Shown: piece by piece, positions 3,018-55,309 of the stretch
How the letters are laid out: each line of letters begins with the position of its first letter
Numbering within the stretch: position 1 is the stretch's first letter
DNA from: Cucumis sativus
Taxonomy: Eukaryota > Streptophyta > Magnoliopsida > Cucurbitales > Cucurbitaceae
Length of the DNA stretch: 64,000 nucleotides
Reading direction: 5' to 3'
NCBI RefSeq assembly: GCF_000004075.3
Contig: NC_026657.2
Span: forward strand, 8,122,001-8,186,000
Position numbers and translations under genes: made by a program
Notes under the pieces: generated by a model
Seen by the model: only the letters and a program-made list of their open reading frames with translations
What the model was told of the DNA's origin: nothing
Databases searched by the model: none

Positions 3018-5509
3018 ATGCTTCTCCAAACTTCTGTTCACCACCGTACCGTCTCTCTCCCCTCACCAATTTCTTATTCTCGTAAATTTCTGCCTCTAAT
3101 CCAATCTCAGCCCTTTTTCCATAATGTGAATTATCGGCGGCTTCCTCTTTCTGTAACTTGCTCTATCTCCCAAGTCCATAGCTATGGAACTGTGGACTTC
3201 GAGCGGAGGCCTATGTTTAAATGGAACGCTATTTATAGAAGGATATCGCTGATGGAGAATCCCGAGTTGGGCTCTGCGAGTGTGCTGAACCAGTGGGAGA
3301 ATGAGGGCAAGAACATTACGAAATGGGAGCTTTCTCGGGTCGTTAAGGAGTTAAGAAAGTACAAGCGGTTTGAGAGGGCTTTGGAGGTAACAAAGATGAT
3401 AAATGTTTGGGTGTTTATATTGGTGTTTATGAATTGTGGTATTGATTTCTTCAGTCTTTAGTTGAGTTAATGAAAAAAATGATGTCGATTTTTATGTAGG
3501 ATTAACTGATGTTCAGCTAAATCGATGAGGTTATAGGTTTGACTTCGAAATGGTTAAAATCACTTTTTTTTTCTTACATTTAAAATCAAATTCGATGGAA
3601 TGATAACCGCTTTTAGAAGTGTATAATAAACTATCGAATTAACTTTGAATGATTATAGGCATATTTGTTACTGATTTTGAATGTGAAAAAGCAATTCTAA
3701 CTGTTTAAAAATCACTCTCAAACATGTCTTTAAATAGATATTGTGGCAAGTATGAAAATCATTCTTGGTTGAATCTGTTTTTCACTTCGTAATTTGGATT
3801 GGCTTGTAAAGCTAAAGTTTCTTCTTCTTCATCACAAGAAATTTCAACTTTGTGTGGGCAAACACAAACTGTGCCAATGCTTTAGCGTTTTTTTATTCTG
3901 AGAAAATGATGCATTTCATTGAAGAATGTTATATACCATCTTTTGAACTTTTCCTTCTTTTTGGGTCTCCTATATTCCTAATACCTTGTGATTGAGGAAT
4001 TATAGGTCATCATCATTGAGCTGATCTCAATGCCTAATTTATTCTTACACATATTTGTAATGTATCTTCTTATATACATGTGTGTATGTGTGTATGATGT
4101 GGTTTTGATCATCTGATCTGGTTATATGATACTTTTCTAAACATCGAAGGGATCACGTGTAAAAATACTGAATTTGGCAATTTGTTGCATGTGTTACATA
4201 GATGATATATATGTATAGATTGTTAAAGCTGTTTCAATTCTAAAATTTCATTTTTTTTCTGAAGATATATGATTGGATGAGCAATAGGGAAGAGAGGTTT
4301 AGATTAACAACGAGTGATGCTGCCATTCAATTGGATCTTATATCGAAAGTCCGTGGCATTAAAAGTGCTGAAGAATACTTCCTCAGGCTGCCGAATCATT
4401 TGAAAGACAGGAGGATATATGGGGCTCTTCTGAACGCGTATGCAAAAGGAAGACAGAGAGAAAAAGCAGAAAATTTACTTGAAAAAATGAGAACCAAAGG
4501 CTTCACGACTCACCCGCTTCCGTTCAATGTAATGATGACTCTCTACATGAACGTTAAAGAGTATGAGAAAGTTGAGTCGTTAGTGTCAGAAATGACAGAA
4601 AATAGCATTCAGCTTGACATATATTCCTACAACATATGGCTATCATCTTGTGGGTTACAAGGATCTACTGAGAAGATGGAAGAAGTATACGAACAGATGA
4701 AACAAGACAGGACCATCAATGCCAATTGGACTACATTCAGCACAATGGCAACAATGTACATTAAGATGGGACTGATGGAAAAAGCTGAAGAATGCTTGAG
4801 AAGGGTTGAAAGTAGGATTGTAGGCCGTGATCGAATACCGTATCATTATCTGATAAGTCTGTATGGTAGTGTTGGTAATAAAGAAGAAATGTATCGGGTG
4901 TGGAACATTTACAAGAACGTTTTCCCCACAATTCCAAATCTGGGATACCATGCAATAATTTCTGCTCTAATCAGGGTTGGTGATGTTGAAGGTGCTGAAA
5001 AAATTTACGAGGAATGGCTAACTGTTAAATCAACCTACGACCCACGAATCGCTAATCTTTTCATAGGATGGTATGTTAAGGAAGGCAACACGAGCAAAGC
5101 TGAAAGCTTCTTCGATCACATGGTTGAAGTTGGGGGAAAGCCAAATTCAAGTACATGGGAGATTCTTGTTGACAGACATACTAAAGAGGGTCGGGTTTCT
5201 GATGCTTTAGCTAGTTGGAAAGAAGCCTTTTCTGCCGAGGGTTCTAAGAGTTGGAGGCCAAAGCCCTATAATGTGTTGGCTTACTTCGACCTCTGTGAGA
5301 AAGAAGGAGACATCGCCAGCAAGGAGGTTCTAGTTGGATTACTGAGGCAGCCCAAATATCTTCAAGACAAAACATATGCATCACTCATTGGTTTGTTAGA
5401 TGAGACAATCGATAACAATGAAGTCTCAGAGAAAGGTAGTAATATAAACGATGAAATCGATAAAACCGAGTACGAGTCTGATGATTCTGAGATGTTTCTC
5501 AAGCTGTGA
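3018..5509 (+). CDS. P-class pentatricopeptide repeat protein (At1g02150 type)
   Basis: Two exons, 3018-3386 and 4265-5509, joined in phase 0 (GAG|GTAACA ... TGAAG|ATA). The product is 537 residues. The N-terminus is Ser/Thr/Pro- and Arg-rich and lacks acidic residues for the first 50 or so residues, as expected of an organelle transit peptide. It continues VDFERRPMFKWNAIYRRISL, ALE/IYDWM at the junction, then about ten PPR-like helical pairs (for example HPLPFNVMMTLYMNVKEYEK and DIYSYNIWLSSCG). The tail is acidic. There is no E or DYW domain, so it belongs to the P class, which binds organelle RNA in processing, stability or translation. The order of motifs closely matches the Arabidopsis At1g02150 protein as I recall it. 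The intron after ALE sits at the first repeat. The RNA target is unknown. Confidence 0.9.
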
Positions 5510-31634: not shown

Positions 31635-33740
31635 TTACATTACTCTACATGCATTTGGATTTTCATCACTAAACAATTGAGGAGCATAGACATAGTGAAT
31701 GAAATAAGGGACATTATTATTTTTATTATTAATATCATTAGAATTATTCTCTTTACTTTGAATCTCTGCAACAACAATAGTCTTCTTGTCAGTAGTAGTT
31801 ATTGTTGTTTCAGATGAAGCCTTTTCTTTTGGCTTCTCTTTTTTATCAGTATTACTTTCTTTCTTCTTCTCTGATGCTACCGCCGTCGACTTCGATGAAT
31901 CAGTCGATTTCGTATCCACTGTAATATCTACATGTTTCTGTAGCTTATTCTTCAAATAGGATTTGAACTTCTCTGCTTCAATGCTTCCTTCCATTGTTAG
32001 GGTTTGAGCTTTTATGTCTGTTTTCACACTATATATTCCTGCCAATATTAAAAATCATCATTATTGTTCTTCAAAATGGGGAATAATTTTTCGTGAATAT
32101 TTTGCAATAGACCCCATCTGAACTCATGCTGCTAAGTGTAGTAAAACAAGAGAAATAGTATTCAAACTTTATAATTGTATCATCATCTCAAGTTATGAAA
32201 AATTTCCTATTTGAATCTTTGAACACCATATTCTATATAATAATTTCGAGTTTAAGTCCTGGTGACCAAAAATGACAACTTCAAGTGATATCTAATAGGA
32301 TATATTTCTAGTAGGTAGAGATTAAAATAGATTTGTTACAAGAAAATGATAGATTAAAGCAAAAGCTATAAAAATAAAATAAATAGAATTTGGAAAGAAA
32401 ACATATTATTATTATTATTTTTGTAAGAAAAACCTATTTAATAATACTAAAAAAAAGGGATTAGTGTGCCACAAAAACCTTTATGCTTTAGCAACTTGTT
32501 CTTCAAGTCTTGCTCGCATTTGGGGCAGTGCAAGTGAACCTTAGCTGTTATTATGCGATTGACCTGCCAAAGTGGATCAAAAGAAAAACCCCATTTAATT
32601 TAATGTAATTAATTTTGTTATTTTATTAATATTTTCTTTCTCTTGATGGATGGATCTTTTCAATTGAATCTTACTATAAATTTGTAACTTCAAATCTACG
32701 TTTTTCATTATGTATTAACCAAATTTCTCTAAATTGTTATTTAATAAGATTTTAGTTAGAAAATAAGGGTCGTTTTTAAGGTAAGATAATAATTTTGTTA
32801 GGAAAAATGTTACTAAATTAACATTTTCCATGTAATTATTAAAAACATTTTCGCATAGTGCCTTTTCTATGCATGGCATAAAATTAGGTTTTACGGTTAA
32901 TATAATTTATACTCAATTAACTAACAATAATGATAAAAATTTTACTTTGAACGATGAAATCTAAATTAGTTTCCTAATGGAGAGTGTTGAGAATGATATG
33001 AACACTATGATCATGTGACATCAAAATATCATGTGTGTATATATATAGTTCGTAAAAAGCATTTAATTTGTGTATAAAGGTTGAGAATAATCATATAATC
33101 TTAATCAATTAGAAATAATTAAGCTTAAGAATTTATACTCACAATGGTTGGTTTGGGTTTGTCATCAATGGGTTTAGGAGGGTCTTTCTCTTTGGGCTTC
33201 ACTTTGGGAGAAATCAATTCAACTTTTTTCTTGCTCAACTTCTCTATTTGCTTCTGAATTTTTAGCACATCCAAATTTGAACCCTTCACCCTAATTTCAT
33301 TTTTCTCCATATCAACTTCAACATTTTGAACACCTAATTTCACCCACCCAGACAAAAAAAAATTATGAACCCAAACAATAAATATGAATTAAAAAAGAAA
33401 AAGTTAATTAACCAATCAACTCGAACAATTTACACATACATGCACTTCAAAGATATAGAAGGATGAAATAATAGTGTCATATCTCCAAATAAACATCCCG
33501 TATGTATATAAAACATTTTGAAAGTTAAGTTATCGTGTAAAAAAAAGTTCGATACTAACTAATAGCGGGAAAGAAATATAAATTTTAAAAACAAAGAACG
33601 GAAACTAATTGAAAATACATATATATGATGTTACCTTGTGTTGTGGAAAGAGGTTTTTTGATATCTCTCCAACATTGATGACAATGAAGATTTAGTTTGT
33701 AAATGGCAGTGATACCTTCAACCTTCTCTTTCTCTCCCAT
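31635..33740 (-). CDS. Heavy-metal-associated isoprenylated plant protein (HIPP) with two HMA domains
   Basis: Four exons: 33740-33635, 33333-33143, 32563-32479 and 32038-31635, joined in phases 1, 0 and 1. The product is 261 residues. HMA domain 1 (about 8-70) has the metal site LHCHQC. A Lys/Pro linker follows. HMA domain 2 (about 100-165) has LHCPKC. A Lys/Glu/Ser/Thr-rich linker leads to the C-terminal CRVM, a CaaX box predicted to be farnesylated. HIPPs bind Zn, Cd or Cu and act at membranes or in the nucleus in metal homeostasis and stress; some are susceptibility factors for pathogens. Exon 1 begins MGEKEKVEGITAIYKLNLHC, and its ATG is the first in frame. Each HMA domain is split by a phase-1 intron at the same place, a sign of internal duplication. 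Confidence 0.93.
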
Positions 33741-36157: not shown

Positions 36158-39100
36158 CTAGCTTCCACGATATGTGGAGAATGAAAATGGTGAAAGCAGG
36201 AGAGGGACATGGAAGTGTTCTAACTTCTGGGATTCCCTGATTTCGAACACAATGGAAACGTACGGAAAGAACCCAGCCGGGAAATACTTTCCCGTGTTAA
36301 AACTTATTCTGTAAATTCCTGGATTTATAGCTTCAACCATGCTCAACAATTGCCCACTTCTCCCATCTTTATCTGTTGCTGATGTCCCTTCGAGTGCCCA
36401 GCCCCCAACATCGGCCTCACCGAATAAGGGGCGTGGTTGAGTACCGATCCATCTTTCCAAACGGACGTCAATACCTGTAGCTGGAGATCCTCGTGCAACA
36501 TCTAACACATGGGTTGTAATTGGGGGTCGAGTTCGAGTTAAAATTTGTGATGTCTTTCCAGTTGAAGCTTCAGAAGTAGCACCTAGATGCCCTCCAATAA
36601 CGTTCACACGATCTTCTAGATTTTCAAAATGAGCAAATGAGGAGTGTTACCACAACATATCAATTCAATCAACCTATTATACTTGGAAATGATCATGTCA
36701 TGTTCATCCATCCAGCTTAACAGTTAACATTGGTATAGTAAAGGAAATAATTTAAAAGGATTGCTTTTAAACTGATCCCCTCCCGAACATCCTCACTGGT
36801 TCTTTCAGCCTCTCTAATAGGACCTAAAAATCCTATTATTCTCTCAAATCGGAAACGATACGCCAAACATTTAAAAGAATTAAGATGAATAATTATTGCT
36901 TAAAATGCAAGGAATCAAGAAAGCTCAATATATGTAACGATTGATAGCAGCACTTATATGGTTTTCATCTTAAAACAATGTGTGCGGTTTAAGAATTAAT
37001 TTTTTTCCCCCTCCTGAGAAACAGTTTTTTAATCGGTTCATCTCTTTGTTTTTTGAATTGATGCATTCTTAATTGGCAGATTAAACGAGAATTGGATTTC
37101 CAAGGATGCTATGAACACACAAAGATGAAACAGATAAAAGTACTCTTTGCAAGTTCTTTTTTTATATTTGTAAATGAAGTTTACCTTCTACTTTTCGTGC
37201 AAAATCCGGAGGAGGATGACTCTCTCTGGTTGAAGAGGTATTTTGTTTGGTTGAGAAAAGTTTGGCAAGACGCAGTTCTGTTATCTTCATTTGCTCCTGA
37301 GCAGCAATCTCAAACTCAACTATGGGTCTACTTGGATACCGTTTCTGCAACAGGCACAGTTTTCTCATACTACGATGAAAAGATTTTCAACTGAATGAAG
37401 AGGGGTCAATTAGAGTTTTAGATAAATGGAACATAACTCAAACTTCCAACTAAGAAACCCAGTCCTCAGTTGAATTCTAAGGATAGCTGACAAGATGATC
37501 TTAGGAATTGCACCCCTGACCCGAAAATATGAACAAATACTAGGAAAAGTAACTGATATTATTGCAATTCACCACAGTAATGCCAATGGCTTCTCATTAT
37601 TAAGCTGGGTGTCAATACAAATATACAGTCTTCCAGTAAGAATGAAAGGGTATTCCATTTAATTGAACTCAGTGACTGTGTTTTAAGCAAGAAGATGAAG
37701 CAACACAAAGATTATAGAAATCCTTTATCTAATTCATGTAATCGCCTCATTGGTATGTTGGTTGAAGTTTCCTAATAAACAGGTGCTCCTGAGATCACTA
37801 TACGCTTTAGACAAATTAGTCTATTGTATTATTTGAAACTATTCAATCCTAGAAAGGGTTAAAACAACGAACATCTAAGGTCCTATATGACACCCATTTT
37901 ACTTTTTTTTTTTAAAACTATGCTTAACGACAATATTTCCACCAATAGTCTTTTTCACCTACCACCCACGTTTTAAACATGTTTTCAGAAACCAAACCAA
38001 AATTTGAAGACTAAGAAAATTTGTTTTTGAAATTTTGTTTAGAATCCACGTGTTTAAGTAAAGTGGAAAACTAGCCAATAATACATAAGGAAACAAGCAT
38101 TAATTTCAAAAATAGAAAAATTAAAACCACAAAGCCTTAAATACTAGGGACCATCATCATGAATTTCGATGAAGGATCTACCTTCAATTCTGCTAGAATC
38201 TCGCTAGTGCTCCTTCCAGATGCACAAATAAGAAAAACAAAACCAAACTTCTGCTGATACTGAATATTCCATTCTGCTAGCTCCTGCAAAGGCCAGCAAG
38301 TATTATGCAAAAGTACACATTAGAAATCATTGACAATTAATCATCAATAACTCAAACCCAAACCCGTCTTCCAAAAAAGCAGTCAATTGGATGATACTAA
38401 AACAGACTCGAACTACTTTTTCGTATTTCTCAGTAAGAGGGCAGCATGCTATAACCTGTAAGCTAGAACCAGTGGCAGTTGCCATTGCAGTTGACTGTTC
38501 TCCCTTACTCCATCTATGAAGAATTTCATTGAAAAGTCACTTCACGTGTACAATATCATACATATTTATACAAGCAATCTAATCAACAGTTGAAAGGAAA
38601 AATGTAAGAACAACGAAAACCTATAATGAAGAAACGAAATTAAAGTCTCCTGCTAGGACATCACCCAACAAGACCCTAAATCTAAGATACATAGAAAGAT
38701 AAAAAGGATGAGGAACTACAAGATAAACCGAGTATAAGACATCGGAACCTCCCCTCTTGAGTATGCCAACCCAAGCCCTAAATCACACAACAATCGCATG
38801 CCTTCCCTCAATCCTCCTCCCTCTTTATAAGAAAATACACTAACTCACTTCCTAAAACTAGTATCCTTAACTAAGACCCTTACATCTCCCTGTTTCTGCT
38901 AAAAATATTTGATTTTCAGACAGCTACATATTGGTCCAATCCCCCTTTTCTCAGAGTGGATTGAGAACCATCAAAATTGGGCAGTTAAATAGCATATTCA
39001 CAGCCACAAAACTAGAAAGCAACAAATATGAGAAAAAAGAGAGGAAGCTTCAGAATCATACAACCCCAATTTCCAAACAAATTCAGTACTTGGCTATTGG

Positions 39101-39660
39101 CATCTGTTAAAATCAAAACCATAGATAGATCTCTCTCACAGGCAACCTGGAGTCAAGCTTCACGTTCCAGCATTCAATTGCATTCTAAGACAATACTATC
39201 TTATTCCAAATTTTGTTCAATTAACTGTAAGCAACAAGTGGATAAACTGATAACAGTGATTCAACCAACTCGATTTCTACGAGAAAGATAGATAATTAAG
39301 AATCTAGCATTTAAAGGGTCGGGGTCTTAACTGAGCACTAGTCTGATTGGATGATTTGGAGACTTGACCACCAATCCGTGGATGAGCAGAGAATGCTTCC
39401 AACCAACCACTCACATCGACCTTTAAAAGAGAAACATCAAATTTTCAGTCTCCATCGATCACAAACGATGATACAAAGAGCTCAAAAAAGGAAAAAAAAA
39501 AAAAAAAAATAGAGACCTGATTGAACCAGATGTGTCTAGCTGCAGCTATAGCTTGTTCCAAGGAGAAAAAAGGGGAAGCAGAAACCATTTCTTTGGCGAA
39601 TTTGGAGCTTCCACAGCATGCCTGAAACTCTTCCTCTACAAAATCATAATTCGACGCCAT
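36158..39660 (-). CDS. TTL: Uric acid degradation bifunctional protein TTL (OHCU decarboxylase + HIU hydrolase)
   Basis: Six exons: 39660-39517, 39420-39332, 38513-38456, 38283-38182, 37344-37185 and 36615-36158. All are in phase; the product is 336 residues. The start MASNYDFVEEEFQACCGSSK is the first ATG. The N-terminal OHCU decarboxylase half has AHPRIG (His61), GEQST (about 82-86) and FLICASGRS (about 114-122). The C-terminal 5-hydroxyisourate hydrolase half has PPITTHVLDVARG, SATDKDGRSG and ends HFHVPLLLSPFSFSTYRGS; YRGS is the family signature. It converts 5-hydroxyisourate to S-allantoin in the peroxisome. An internal PTS2 (RVNVIGGHL, 187-195) lies just after the exon 5/6 junction. The plant protein also binds the brassinosteroid receptor BRI1. 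The next gene, CHY1-like, is divergent. Confidence 0.96.
37880..38110. repeat. Possible decayed MITE-like segment in a TTL intron
   Basis: Inside the intron between exons 4 and 5 lies a segment rich in ttttaaac, gttttcagaaaccaaacc and atttgtttttgaaattttg words. Similar words occur in other AT-rich spacers here (for example 28380-28680). It recalls the short hAT-like elements common in cucurbit introns. No ends or target duplication were fixed, so this is weak. Confidence 0.25.
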
Positions 39661-48045: not shown

Positions 48046-50232
48046 TCACCAGTAATCTCTGCAAGAACAGGAACCATCTTTGAAGTGGTGGAAACGGTTT
48101 CGATCTCTTAACGTAATCTGCCTTTGGTAAATCTTTGAGACTAGTTTTATTAAAGTATGACAGTCTGAGCAGACCCTGAGGTTCTTCAGGATAACAATTC
48201 TTCCACCTATCTCTGATTTCAATAAGCCATAACATAAAGCTAGTTTTTCACTATGTTGAGAAACTGACTCTTCCTTCTTATTATCATCAATGTTGAGCAA
48301 TACTTCTGAGGTATCTGCAACATAACCTGCCAGCTTCAGTTTCTCTCTAACTTGTCGAAGCATTATAGATATTTCAGCTATTTCTGGGTGAGAACAATCT
48401 CCAGCCAGAAATGAATGGGCGATGTTATCTATAACAACTGAACTGCAACCAGGTGTTTTCTGAATTCCTTTCTCATTCATTAATTCTCTTACCTTTTTCA
48501 CTTCATTCCACATTTTCCTTTTTGCATAAATGTTAGAGAGCAAAATGTAAACTCCGTCATTTGTTGGTTCGAGTTTTAGCAGGAATCTCGCAGCTTCCTC
48601 TCCTAGCTCAAGATTGTTATATACTCTGCAAGCCCCAAGCATAGAGCCCCATATTGCACCATCTGGCTGTAAAGGCATTACTCGGATAAATTCCCGAGCT
48701 TCTGCCAGAAGTCCTGCTCTACATAAAAGATCTACCATGCACCCATAATGCTCCGACTTAAGTCTGACTCCATATAATGCTTCTATTTCATAGAATAGCT
48801 TCTTCCCCTCTTGAACTAACCCTGCGTGGCTGCAGGCAGTCAGTACCCCAATGAAAGTTATTTCATCTGGCTGTAAGTCTGTCGTCTGCATTAGACGGAA
48901 CTGAGCAAGAGCCTCCCTGCCAAGGCCGTGTAGAGCAAAACCATTCACCATAGAATTCCAAGAGATCAAATCTTTATACGACATGCTATCAAAGATTCTT
49001 TTAGCAGCATCTATGTCTCCACACTTTGAAAACATGTCAATCAACGAGTTGTTCAAACTAACAGAATGACCCTTCTGAGTCCTGGTAATGTAGTCATGAA
49101 CCCATCTCCCTGTTTCTAAGTCACCCAGTTGAGCACAGGCCGAAATGACGGCTAGAATTGTGACTTCATTGGGACGCATGTTTGAGCCGCCAGCCACTTC
49201 TCTAAATAACTGTAACGCCTCTGTGCTTCTATTGTTCTTGACATAACCGAAAATCAAAGCTGACCAAGCATATACGTCTTTATCAGACAATTTGTCAAAC
49301 ACTTGCCTTGCAGTTTTTAGATCCCCACATTTAGCATACATGTTAACCAAAGCACTTCCTAGAACAGCACAAATCTTCATATCCATCTCCCGAATATGAG
49401 AATGCAGCTTCATTCCAACGCCCAAATCTTTTAATTCAGCACAAGCTGATACAAGGGTCGCCATGGTAACTTCATCAGGGCTAAACCCATCTTCCTCCAT
49501 CTTCTTATACAATAGCAAAGCCTCATTAGGACAATGGTTTTTCATATAACCACTAATCATCGAAGTCCACACCACTTTATTTCTATGACCCATTCTCTCA
49601 AACAGGAACCTCGCAGATTTTAAATCTCCACAGGCTGCGTACATATTTAACAATGTGGTTTCTATGTACAGGTCCGAATGAAGCATATACTTGACAACTT
49701 GCCCGTGTAGAACCTTCCCAACTTTGAATTCCAATAAAAGTGCACAACCCTTTAGCAGAGAAGGAAATGTGAATCTATCAGGAACATTCCTCGACCGTTC
49801 GAGCATCTCAGTATAACTTTGGAGCGCCCTTCTCGGCATATTGGAATTCACAAAGGCTCTCAACATGGAATTCCAAGTAAGTACATCTAACTCTCTAGTG
49901 TGAGCAAAAACTGAATAAGCATAGCCAACTCCAAGCGAGCCCATTGAGAGGACATGGGCAATGAGCTTGTTTAATGATGGCTTATGGTGGATGAAGCCTG
50001 TAACTACCATTTGTGCATGAAGTTGTTGTAATTCTGTCAATTGTGTCCATTTTGTGCTTTTCTCTAAGAGGGGGAAAATGGGATATGGTTTTTGGTTGAA
50101 TTTGAGATTGGGTATTGAAGTGGGTTGGTAAGAAGAGGTGGAATGGCTTGTTGAACATAATGAAGAAACTGTTTGGAGCATATAATGAGGATGATTTGCA
50201 ACGAAGAAGTAGAGGGTTTGGTTCAAAACCAT
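48046..50232 (-). CDS. PLS-class DYW-type pentatricopeptide repeat protein (organelle RNA editing factor)
   Basis: One uninterrupted exon of 728 residues. The first 50 residues are hydrophobic, Ser-rich and Pro-rich, fitting an organelle transit peptide. A PLS array follows, with repeats such as VLTWNSMLRAFVNSNMPRRA, VVWTSMISGYMKNHCPNEAL, VYAWSALIFGYVKNNRSTEA and LISWNSMVNGFALHGLGREA. E and E+ motifs come next. The C-terminal DYW cytidine-deaminase domain has HSEKLA (zinc ligand His and catalytic Glu), CSDCH, and ends HHFKDGSCSCRDYW. DYW proteins convert specific C to U in plastid or mitochondrial transcripts. The target is unknown; the PPR code could be read to predict it. The whole domain is present with no sign of decay. 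It converges with the CHY1-like gene. Confidence 0.95.
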   Translation of the reverse strand: MVLNQTLYFFVANHPHYMLQTVSSLCSTSHSTSSYQPTSIPNLKFNQKPYPIFPLLEKSTKWTQLTELQQLHAQMVVTGFIHHKPSLNKLIAHVLSMGSLGVGYAYSVFAHTRELDVLTWNSMLRAFVNSNMPRRALQSYTEMLERSRNVPDRFTFPSLLKGCALLLEFKVGKVLHGQVVKYMLHSDLYIETTLLNMYAACGDLKSARFLFERMGHRNKVVWTSMISGYMKNHCPNEALLLYKKMEEDGFSPDEVTMATLVSACAELKDLGVGMKLHSHIREMDMKICAVLGSALVNMYAKCGDLKTARQVFDKLSDKDVYAWSALIFGYVKNNRSTEALQLFREVAGGSNMRPNEVTILAVISACAQLGDLETGRWVHDYITRTQKGHSVSLNNSLIDMFSKCGDIDAAKRIFDSMSYKDLISWNSMVNGFALHGLGREALAQFRLMQTTDLQPDEITFIGVLTACSHAGLVQEGKKLFYEIEALYGVRLKSEHYGCMVDLLCRAGLLAEAREFIRVMPLQPDGAIWGSMLGACRVYNNLELGEEAARFLLKLEPTNDGVYILLSNIYAKRKMWNEVKKVRELMNEKGIQKTPGCSSVVIDNIAHSFLAGDCSHPEIAEISIMLRQVREKLKLAGYVADTSEVLLNIDDNKKEESVSQHSEKLALCYGLLKSEIGGRIVILKNLRVCSDCHTLIKLVSKIYQRQITLRDRNRFHHFKDGSCSCRDYW

Positions 50233-53200
50233 CAGATTTGGTTTTGTTATAATTTCTTTCTATTGGGTTTAAACTATGTATTGCCAAAGATAAGGTTGCC
50301 CATTTGGACCATTCAATTTGAAAGAGATAAGGAGGACATGAATTGACTAATGGATGAAATGAGATTCAACTTGGTCGTTAGTGAAAATTTCAACATTAGT
50401 TGATTTAATGTTATGTTTAGTTTAGGTTCACGGATGCCGACCATTTAACTGACGTGAGTTGGACAATAAAAAGTCAGTTTCTTTTTCCTTTTTTGTTAAA
50501 AAAATTAAGAAAGTTAAAAACACTTTTGGCCCCTTGATTTTCATGAAAATAACAATTTAGTTTCGGAAGTAATAATCCAATCATTATACTTGGATTTGCA
50601 GCAATTTAGTTTTAACATAAAAAAGTACATCAAAACTAGATTTTAATTTTATTTTATGTGATGTAGGCTATGTATTTTGTTAATTTTTACCATCTAAATT
50701 AAATTGTTACCAATTTTGAAGAAAAGTATTAAATTATTACAAAATAAAATTTCAAATTGATGTTTCTGCTTTTATAGGGACTAAAAGTAAGTTTTTATTG
50801 TATTTAAATATTTTTTTATTATTACATTTATATCTTTAAAAAATCTTTTTATTTTGTATTAGGCTATTTTCGATTTGGTAGTCTAATTTGGTTTGAATGT
50901 TCTAGATTATATTAATTTCTCTTTGGAAAGAAAAATACATAATTTGATAATTCTTTCATTAATTTAAAAATTATGAGAGAATCCTACCCAACTCAACCAT
51001 ACGTTCATCATGCTCAATAATTTATTTATTTTGTAATTAATCTTAAAACCACTGATTGGTCCCAAAGGTTAATGGGTGCAGACATTTAATATATATCTAT
51101 CACTCTTTTGGCTCGAAATATGAATAAAGTCTTAACATGTGAGAGAGAAGATCATTGGAGAGGAAACAAGTAGGAGTTTGTATACAAGACATCTCGGATC
51201 ACATTGATCTAATACTATCTTAAATCACTAATTAACTTAAAACCTTCCGGAAGGAATTTAACTTTTTGGTTAGATTAAGTTATATTTGTGAGTAACTTTG
51301 ATAACCATGTTAATTCATTCTCAAATACATAAATTTAAAAGAAAGAAAATACCTCTATATATATATATATTCGAAGATTTGCCAATAAGTTTTAATGAAT
51401 TTGGAGCCAACGGTTAGGTAAGAAATATTTTTCAGCCAAACCCCATCAAAAAGACCTTTTTTTTAAAATTCCTTTTTGGCCCCAAAAACCAAATCAAAGT
51501 TTCTCCATCTTCCATTTGCAACCAACAGCCAACCTCTCTATTAATTAACTTTAATGGGATGTCCCACATTCTTCAAATAATAACTCAAGTAACTTCTTAT
51601 CAAAGGAAGCTGTTAGTTCATAATTTTTCAAGTACAAGTAATCTTATTGAAGAAGAATTATGAATGAATCTGCGCATAGAAGAAAACTAAAAATAAGAGA
51701 CTGAAGAGATGGCTTTATATATATATATATTGGATAACATAACTTCGATTGATTAAATAATATTCATCTTCAAATTTTCTAAGATCGATGTGCTGTCATT
51801 TACTTGGCAAGACACCCTCTATAAAATTGTAGTCTATGAACTTGTAATCAGGACAACTCAACTTCTTTTTAAGCAACTTAAATATATTTTATTACTATAT
51901 CCGTGAAATTATAGAAAATGTCATAAACATTGTTTTCAAATATTTGTAAAATATAGCAAAATAATTTTTTTGAAAGGATGTCATGATAGACCGCAATAGA
52001 TTATTATCTATGTCAAAAGCTTTGTTGTTTAAAATAATTTTCTAAACATAACTCTCCGTTTAAAGATTTTTTATAGAAAAATAAAAGAAACTGTGATGTT
52101 AGGTTTAAAATTTTTACAAAAGTTCATTAGAATGTTAGATAAGGATTGAGATCTAACATCACACCCATGTATTTGTGGGTTCAAATTTAATGCAAATGTT
52201 GATAAGTTTTTAATAGTTTTGAAATACTCAAAAGTTTTTTTTCTAAGAAGATTTTTTTCTTCAAGAAATTTAGGGTAAATTAGTTATAAGGAGGTGAGTT
52301 GAAGTGGTTGAGTAAAATGGGTTGGGTTGGGAAGGGTAAATAATGCTGATGTGCACTTTGTTCTTGCTTCCAACATAAGCATATTTGGATTATGCATACA
52401 AAAGAAAATGGGGGGGAAAAAAGGAAGCCTTTGTAAAGTGATTTAAAATAATTTTCTCAAGTGGGGTTTGACTATTTTTGGAGATAAAAATGAGTAGAAA
52501 TGCATAAAAAGATGGACCCAACCAAAGAAATTCAACTGTAAAAAGTGGAGAAATAATAATGGAAAGGAAAGGAGTGCATTCCTTCTGTTTATCCAAAAGT
52601 CTTCAATAACTCAAACATAAAACCATAATGACAAAAGAAAAAGGAAAACAAATACCCCACCAAATCTCTGTTGCTTTGATATTTTATTTTCAACATTATT
52701 AGTTTAATTTAAAGGGTCTTTTCGTTAAAATCAAAATAGACCATACATGGATTCACATCGATCGAGAGTTCAAACCATTCTTCAACTTTCTGTCCGTTGA
52801 ATTTATACATAAATGAGTTTGTATCAAAATCATAAAGCTTTCAGTCGACAATTTTTTTGAATATGTCATTCTTCTAGATACCAAGGTTCTCATTTCTAGT
52901 TAATTTTTCAAAATTCAACTTTAAAGATGGTTATGAAATATGAAGTGTGTAACATTCAAATTTAATTTTTGTTTTAATCATTTAAAAGTTTTCTTAGTTG
53001 TATTTTGATATAAATTTGAAACTCGAAACGTTGTAACTCTTCTAGACAATTCAATTTTATATTAAATAGGGTATGTAATTTTTTTTTAAACATTTGTTGG
53101 ACATTCAAAATGACGTGTTATTGAACGACTTCCACTTTGTAATTAACCTACTATGTATTACATCATTAAGGTAGGGAGAGAAATTTATGTATGGTCGTAA

Positions 53201-53925: not shown

Positions 53926-55173
53926 TCATTCATCATTCACAAACTTCAAATAATTCTTCAACTCACTAGGAAAACATGGACTACGCCTCCATTTGTTCCC
54001 ATGCATCTTCAAAATCTTGATCACCTTCTCCTTGGTCGAACTCCGGCCACCGTCACCGACACCGGTGCTGTCCATGTGTAGTATCATCAGCAGCTTCTTC
54101 ACTGCCCCACATGCCATCATCTCATCTACAACCCTTTCCCTTGGGTGAAAACTACTAATCCAAAGCAAAATCTTCACCCCAATTTTTGTTGCTACATATG
54201 AAACATTCAAAATCTTCTTAGTCACAGCTGCAATTCCCATCCCATGTTCTACCAAAGCTAATCTCCCTTCAGCACATTCACATAAACTCTGCAGAATCTG
54301 CAGCATTCTCTCGCATTTCGATCGCCCCGACTCCGGTAAAAGCTCGATCAGAATCCACACTGCCCCAGCTTCGATCGCCTTCACTCGACTCCTTTTCGAG
54401 GATGAGAGAATTTCTATCATTACATCTAATGCACATGAGCTAGCCTTTGTGGGAAATTCGTCCGATACAAGCTCCAACAATGGCTTGAAGAAATCAATCC
54501 CCTGTTCTTCCATAATAGATCCCCAATTGTAATTGGTGTTTTTAGCAATATTTCTAAGGATTTTCACAGCGTAAAAACGCCCTTCTGCACTTCCCCTTTG
54601 TACAACAACAGCAATCGATTTCATCAATTCTTCTCTCTTATACATTTCGTCGAACAGTTTATCTTCATTTGAAATCGGAAACTGACACAGAACGCCCAAA
54701 GCCTCTTCACAAGTGTCCAACGTCGAGAAATCAGAACAATCAATAAGAATTTGAATCACAACATTAACAACAATCCCAATCCCACTCAATCTAATAAACT
54801 CCGATTTCATCCCATCGTTCATTTCAACCATCGATCTCAATTTCCTCAAAGAACTAACCTTGAATGGAGAAGACTCAACAGTAGCAAGAAGCGACGAGAC
54901 TTCCTCGAGCGCCGTCGCCGGCGTCAAGGCAGAATCATTGATTTTCCAAGCGAGAATGAGGCGCTTGAGATTCAGATTAGGGGTGATGACGAAGTCTTCA
55001 GCACCGGCAGCGAGTGTCTGCATCGTCGCCGGACAAGTTTTTTTATTGTAAGTAAAAAGCCATTTTTCAATGCTCTTTCTATCGTAGGTGACGCCGGTAG
55101 AGACAGTGACCGGATCTTCCATGAGCTCCATGGAAATGGGGCATCGAAAAAGAGGAGGAAAATCAGAATCCAT
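53926..55173 (-). CDS. U-box/ARM E3 ubiquitin ligase (PUB22/23-like group)
   Basis: A single exon of 415 residues starting MDSDFPPLFRCPISMELMED. The U-box (about 6-80) has PLFRCPISMELMEDPVTVST, GVTYDRKSIEKWL and CPATMQTL, followed by ITPNLNLKRLILAW. The rest is a string of ARM-like helical repeats, for example EEALGVLCQFPISNEDKLF, RFYAVKILRNIAKN and SSCALDVMIEIL. The U-box recruits the E2 enzyme; the ARM repeats bind the substrate. Intronless genes of this size and layout form the PUB20-PUB29 group. Several of its members (PUB22, 23, 24) dampen immune signalling and drought responses. Assignment to one member is not possible from sequence alone. The leader upstream of the ATG at 55173 is GA/CT-rich. 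Confidence 0.92.
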   Translation of the reverse strand: MDSDFPPLFRCPISMELMEDPVTVSTGVTYDRKSIEKWLFTYNKKTCPATMQTLAAGAEDFVITPNLNLKRLILAWKINDSALTPATALEEVSSLLATVESSPFKVSSLRKLRSMVEMNDGMKSEFIRLSGIGIVVNVVIQILIDCSDFSTLDTCEEALGVLCQFPISNEDKLFDEMYKREELMKSIAVVVQRGSAEGRFYAVKILRNIAKNTNYNWGSIMEEQGIDFFKPLLELVSDEFPTKASSCALDVMIEILSSSKRSRVKAIEAGAVWILIELLPESGRSKCERMLQILQSLCECAEGRLALVEHGMGIAAVTKKILNVSYVATKIGVKILLWISSFHPRERVVDEMMACGAVKKLLMILHMDSTGVGDGGRSSTKEKVIKILKMHGNKWRRSPCFPSELKNYLKFVNDE

Positions 55174-55309
55174 TGATGATGATAGAAGAATCTCTTTACT
55201 TCAAAGCTCCGATCAAACGCTCCAATGGCGACAACAGAGAGAAGAAGAAGGGTCTCGTCTTATAGGAAGCCGTTTGTAAGATGACGTCATAAACCCTTTT
55301 GACAAATTC

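Follow-up and report, generated by a model that had tools for sequence, protein, structure and literature searches.

Two candidate in-frame 3′ acceptors flank the internal PTS2 of a predicted TTL gene in Cucumis sativus, resembling a published splice switch

The closest described system is the TTL gene of Arabidopsis (At5g58220), for whose forms TTL1- and TTL2- the primary paper is said, in the papers that cite it, to be Lamberto et al. 2010 (Plant Cell 22:1564). Arabidopsis TTL is described as a fusion of OHCU decarboxylase and HIU hydrolase that carries an internal PTS2 in the region linking the two. The gene gives rise to two or more forms through 'internal alternative acceptor junctions', and the choice of acceptor keeps or removes the PTS2 (PMC3847293). 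Forms of 324 aa (peroxisomal) and of 311 and 286 aa (cytoplasmic) were reported (PMC2834698), and the acceptor choice was placed at the last intron (PMC10095807) and at the third intron (PMC10952736). A designed targeting tag likewise made use of a pair of alternative acceptors on either side of the TTL PTS2 (PMC3847293), and TTL splice variants were described more briefly elsewhere (PMC4324301, PMC3487989). The switch appears to be conserved in angiosperms (PMC9266299), with both PTS2-containing and PTS2-lacking predicted forms found in 35 eudicot and monocot species (PMC10952736). An acceptor event that removes a sole glutamate was reported in Glycine max and Solanum lycopersicum and was considered by its authors to be likely non-homologous with the Arabidopsis event (PMC10952736). 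As for the signal itself, plant TTL is one of only two proteins reported to carry an internal PTS2, to the knowledge of the authors of that report (PMC7710942).

Within the 64,000-nt stretch of C. sativus DNA analysed here (the window; NC_026657.2, positions 8,122,001 to 8,186,000), a minus-strand gene of six exons (Table 1) is predicted to encode a plant TTL (allantoin synthase), with OHCU decarboxylase fused to HIU hydrolase. Exon borders were set by eye from the sequence and checked by the open frame; in the resulting predicted model, introns 1–5 (96, 818, 172, 837 and 569 nt) are all GT-AG and the joined exons form a single open frame of 336 codons plus a stop codon ending at 36158. The N-terminal OHCU decarboxylase domain (PF09349; 126.9 bits, cut-off 24) spans residues 8–158 in exons 1–5, and the C-terminal HIU hydrolase/transthyretin domain (PF00576; 112.4 bits, cut-off 25.3) spans residues 217–335. 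The protein ends in STYRGS-stop and hence has at its C-terminus the Tyr-Arg-Gly-Ser motif that has been described for transthyretin-related proteins (PMC2834698). Among solved structures, the top match was 2q37 'OHCU decarboxylase' (7.2e-59, residues 7–164). A search of the same genome (226.6 Mb, 88 contigs) with the exon 6 protein, in which match counts are lower bounds, gave at least one HIU-hydrolase match, located at the TTL locus itself (E 1.3e-99). When viral contigs were scanned with the long TTL protein, four stretches matched the pattern and none was confirmed, so that no relative was found among them.

Table 1. Features of the predicted TTL gene (window coordinates). A slash marks a splice junction; Y, T and G are the fractions at positions –20 to –4 of the acceptor concerned.
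Feature	Positions	Strand	Remarks	Y	T	G
TTL exon 1	39517..39660	-	open, ATG at 39660, donor CAG/GTCTCT			
TTL exon 2	39332..39420	-	acceptor TTTTAAAG, donor TCA/GTTAAG	0.76	0.65	0.12
TTL exon 3	38456..38513	-	acceptor TTCATAG, donor CAG/GTTATA	0.59	0.41	0.06
TTL exon 4	38182..38283	-	acceptor TTTGCAG, donor AAG/GTAGAT	0.65	0.41	0.24
TTL exon 5	37185..37344	-	phase 1 end at AAG/GTAAAC	0.47	0.29	0.29
TTL exon 6, long form	36158..36615	-	HIU hydrolase/transthyretin domain, YRGS-stop at end			
Proximal acceptor ATCTAG (exon start 36615)	36616..36621	-	read from sequence	0.59	0.41	0.12
NAGNAG motif TAGAAG (second AG, exon start 36612)	36613..36618	-	one Glu lost, PTS2 kept	0.53	0.41	0.12
33-nt alternative segment	36583..36615	-	with last exon 5 base encodes EDRVNVIGGHL; dropped with distal acceptor			
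PTS2-type nonapeptide RVNVIGGHL, codons	36584..36610	-	residues 187-195			
Distal acceptor ATCTAG (exon start 36582)	36583..36588	-	PTS2 His-Leu codons plus first base of next Gly codon	0.47	0.29	0.35

The nonapeptide RVNVIGGHL sits between the two domains, as expected of an internal PTS2. It was the sole PTS2-type match in the TTL protein when scanned with [RK][LVIQ]xx[LVIHQ][LSGAK]x[HQ][LAF], a pattern related to published ones. This pattern occurred in 1.15% of 20,000 shuffled TTL proteins and in none of the three other window proteins tested; the match thus exceeds chance expectation. As to published motifs, RVNVIGGHL is accepted by [RK][LVI]x5[HQ][LAF] (PMC7710942); the narrower definition used for plants, R[LI]x5HL (PMC7086175), would pass over it because of the Val at position 2, which weighs against a functional signal here.

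Read along the minus strand, intron 5 can end at either of two acceptors, a proximal one (...GAAAATCTAG/AAGATC, exon 6 starting at 36615) and a distal one (...GGGCATCTAG/GTGCTA, exon 6 starting at 36582). Because the coding sequence upstream of exon 6 counts 553 nt (553 mod 3 = 1), intron 5 is in phase 1, and both products are therefore in frame, with the proximal site giving 336 aa and the distal site 325 aa, each open to the stop codon. Two in-frame 3′ acceptors of one intron, the last of five, thus flank the TTL PTS2. Both domains are retained by the 336- and 325-aa forms at closely similar E-values (1.3e-36 and 1.1e-36 for PF09349; 2e-32 and 1.9e-32 for PF00576), and therefore the linker alone differs. 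These coordinates and frames are those of the first-pass annotation, which had let exon 6 start at 36615 or 36582, each after ATCTAG and 33 nt apart; translation of both forms likewise confirmed its claim that the 11 residues removed (E-D-R-V-N-V-I-G-G-H-L) hold the whole PTS2.

A third candidate acceptor is provided by the NAGNAG motif, as the TTL product starting at 36612 is also open and in frame. Other in-frame AGs nearby, a GAG (exon start 36591) and an AAG (36567), would break or remove the PTS2. GAG acceptors are seldom used, and the one at 36591 was set aside on that ground. In-frame YAGs also occur within the HIU hydrolase domain (exon starts 36501, 36480 and 36474), where their use would cut the domain. 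The TAG at 36501 would remove 38 residues, exactly as many as separate the Arabidopsis forms of 324 and 286 aa; we judged this a coincidence, as the cut falls inside ITTHVLD of the HIU hydrolase domain. At the level of predicted acceptors, the TTL gene has the sequence for both the soybean/tomato-type and the PTS2-removing event. Four words resembling branch points precede the proximal exon start by 15–54 nt and the distal one by 48–87 nt, and therefore one branch point could serve both acceptors.

The mechanism is most likely that of the published TTL switch. We estimate at roughly 0.65 the probability that the cucumber TTL gene carries this localisation switch, with the proximal acceptor leading to a peroxisomal 336-aa enzyme and the distal acceptor to a cytosolic one of 325 aa. 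Specifically, the spliceosome would join exon 5 to 36615 to yield an enzyme that holds its PTS2 internally, in the linker that joins the two domains, and that the PTS2 receptor would then import into peroxisomes; joining exon 5 to 36582 would yield an enzyme with both domains intact and no PTS2, which would be cytosolic. The gene structure, both open frames, the domains and the PTS2 motif are read from the sequence of this locus; that both acceptors would be used, and that the two proteins would end up in different compartments, we infer from the published Arabidopsis work. Of the two TTL products, we would guess the long form to be the more abundant.

The pathway context fits this arrangement. 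At least three uricase matches were found in the same genome, on contig C5. The best of them is followed, some 1.2 kb further downstream, by a frame (L002:2930-3121) that ends in ...SLSRFSSKL-stop, with the PTS1 SKL, and probably belongs to the uricase. This leads us to expect HIU in the peroxisome, the predicted site of action of the long TTL form. Judged from the raw sequence, the published localisation switch of purine breakdown would be available in cucumber.

The earlier suggestion that a similar alternative-splicing switch operates in Arabidopsis TTL is borne out by the literature (PMC3847293, PMC2834698, PMC10095807). The novelty that the first-pass annotation saw in the tandem-acceptor design and its conservation is, in contrast, already in print (PMC10952736, PMC9266299). 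Its proposal that one gene makes a peroxisomal and a cytosolic form agrees with the anatomy of the locus and with the published Arabidopsis mechanism, but it overlooked the competing, PTS2-keeping site at 36612. Literature searches on cucumber TTL/allantoin splicing and on transthyretin-like together with NAGNAG found no paper, and a full-text search for the peptide IGGHL found no TTL paper by title. Among papers on alternative splicing, PTS2 and peroxisomes together with cucumber, none was on TTL by title, and one of them, PMC3487989, mentions TTL.

The 36612 site underlies the strongest alternative, namely that the wobble TAG/AAG/ between 36615 and 36612 constitutes the actual splice choice, costing one Glu, so that all TTL keeps its PTS2 and the distal site is silent. 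The presence of TAGAAG and the open, in-frame 36612 product argue for this, as does the sole-glutamate event of soybean and tomato described above. The proximal pair is also richer in pyrimidines (0.59 and 0.53, against 0.47 for the distal site). The distal context is among the weakest in the gene and weaker than the proximal one, which counts against the localisation switch, although it is about equal to that of the exon 5 acceptor. However, TAG/G is an acceptable acceptor core, and the distal site has it. The 35 species with both PTS2-containing and PTS2-lacking predicted forms (PMC10952736) further argue against a silent distal site, and we regard the wobble as an unlikely explanation on its own.

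The tandem arrangement was also set against chance. Among the AGs examined between 36725 and 36421, 9 of 14 gave an in-frame open product (36615 and eight downstream of it), and the remainder (three upstream and two downstream of 36615) did not. We then re-encoded the 30-residue linker with randomly drawn synonymous codons (100,000 samples, with codon counts from four coding stretches of the window, 1886 codons). An in-frame YAG appeared from the PTS2 Leu up to where the HIU hydrolase domain begins in 64% of the samples, from the sixth linker codon onward in 73%, and exactly at the Leu/Gly junction of the distal site in 31%. The tandem acceptor is thus not beyond chance and, because PTS2-removing YAGs are common in such samples, sequence alone is poor evidence for the use of the distal acceptor. 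That the proximal acceptor alone is used, the distal ATCTAG being a chance product of the His-Leu-Gly codons, would accord with these frequencies and with the additional in-frame YAGs inside the HIU hydrolase domain, but is decidedly improbable given that the same type of event has been published for TTL of other flowering plants (PMC10952736, PMC9266299).

Returning to the localisation switch as the preferred reading, the cucumber gene shares with Arabidopsis TTL the domain fusion, the internal PTS2 and the alternative 3′ acceptors of one intron that keep or remove it; in cucumber, this is the fifth and last intron. The two differ in that the 324- and 311-aa Arabidopsis forms are 13 residues apart, whereas the cucumber forms are 11 apart, and in that the Arabidopsis PTS2 is RLx5HL (PMC3847293) and that of cucumber RVx5HL. 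In cucumber, the distal acceptor is formed within the final codons of the PTS2. As in soybean and tomato TTL (PMC10952736), a one-glutamate change with the PTS2 kept would be possible in the cucumber gene, through its TAGAAG (36618-36613); the cucumber gene holds the candidate PTS2-removing site as well.

This might in turn point to a three-way TTL acceptor cluster, with a NAGNAG Glu wobble before the PTS2 and a distal site in the PTS2 His-Leu codons, a tentative reading that we hold to be somewhat unlikely. If both events were used, the soybean/tomato and Arabidopsis types could both derive from a single ancestral cluster of acceptors, in which case selection would act on the choice of Leu codon (CTA before G) for splicing as well as targeting. 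What the locus adds is a small comparative question, whether the one-glutamate and PTS2-removing events of different plants stem from one shared acceptor cluster, and the way in which the His and Leu codons of the PTS2 double as a candidate acceptor.

Elsewhere in the window, the minus-strand frame 31635-32054 contains KFKSYLKNKLQKHVDI and ends in CRVM; it had no Pfam match at 1e-3 and, judging by its motif, may be the terminal exon of a gene for a heavy-metal-associated isoprenylated protein. Also on the minus strand, one open frame at 53926-55200 encodes a plant U-box protein with ARM repeats, and a single 737-aa open frame at 48046-50259 carries PPR repeats, an E motif and a DYW deaminase domain. 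PPR repeats were likewise found in a plus-strand open frame at 4244-5509.
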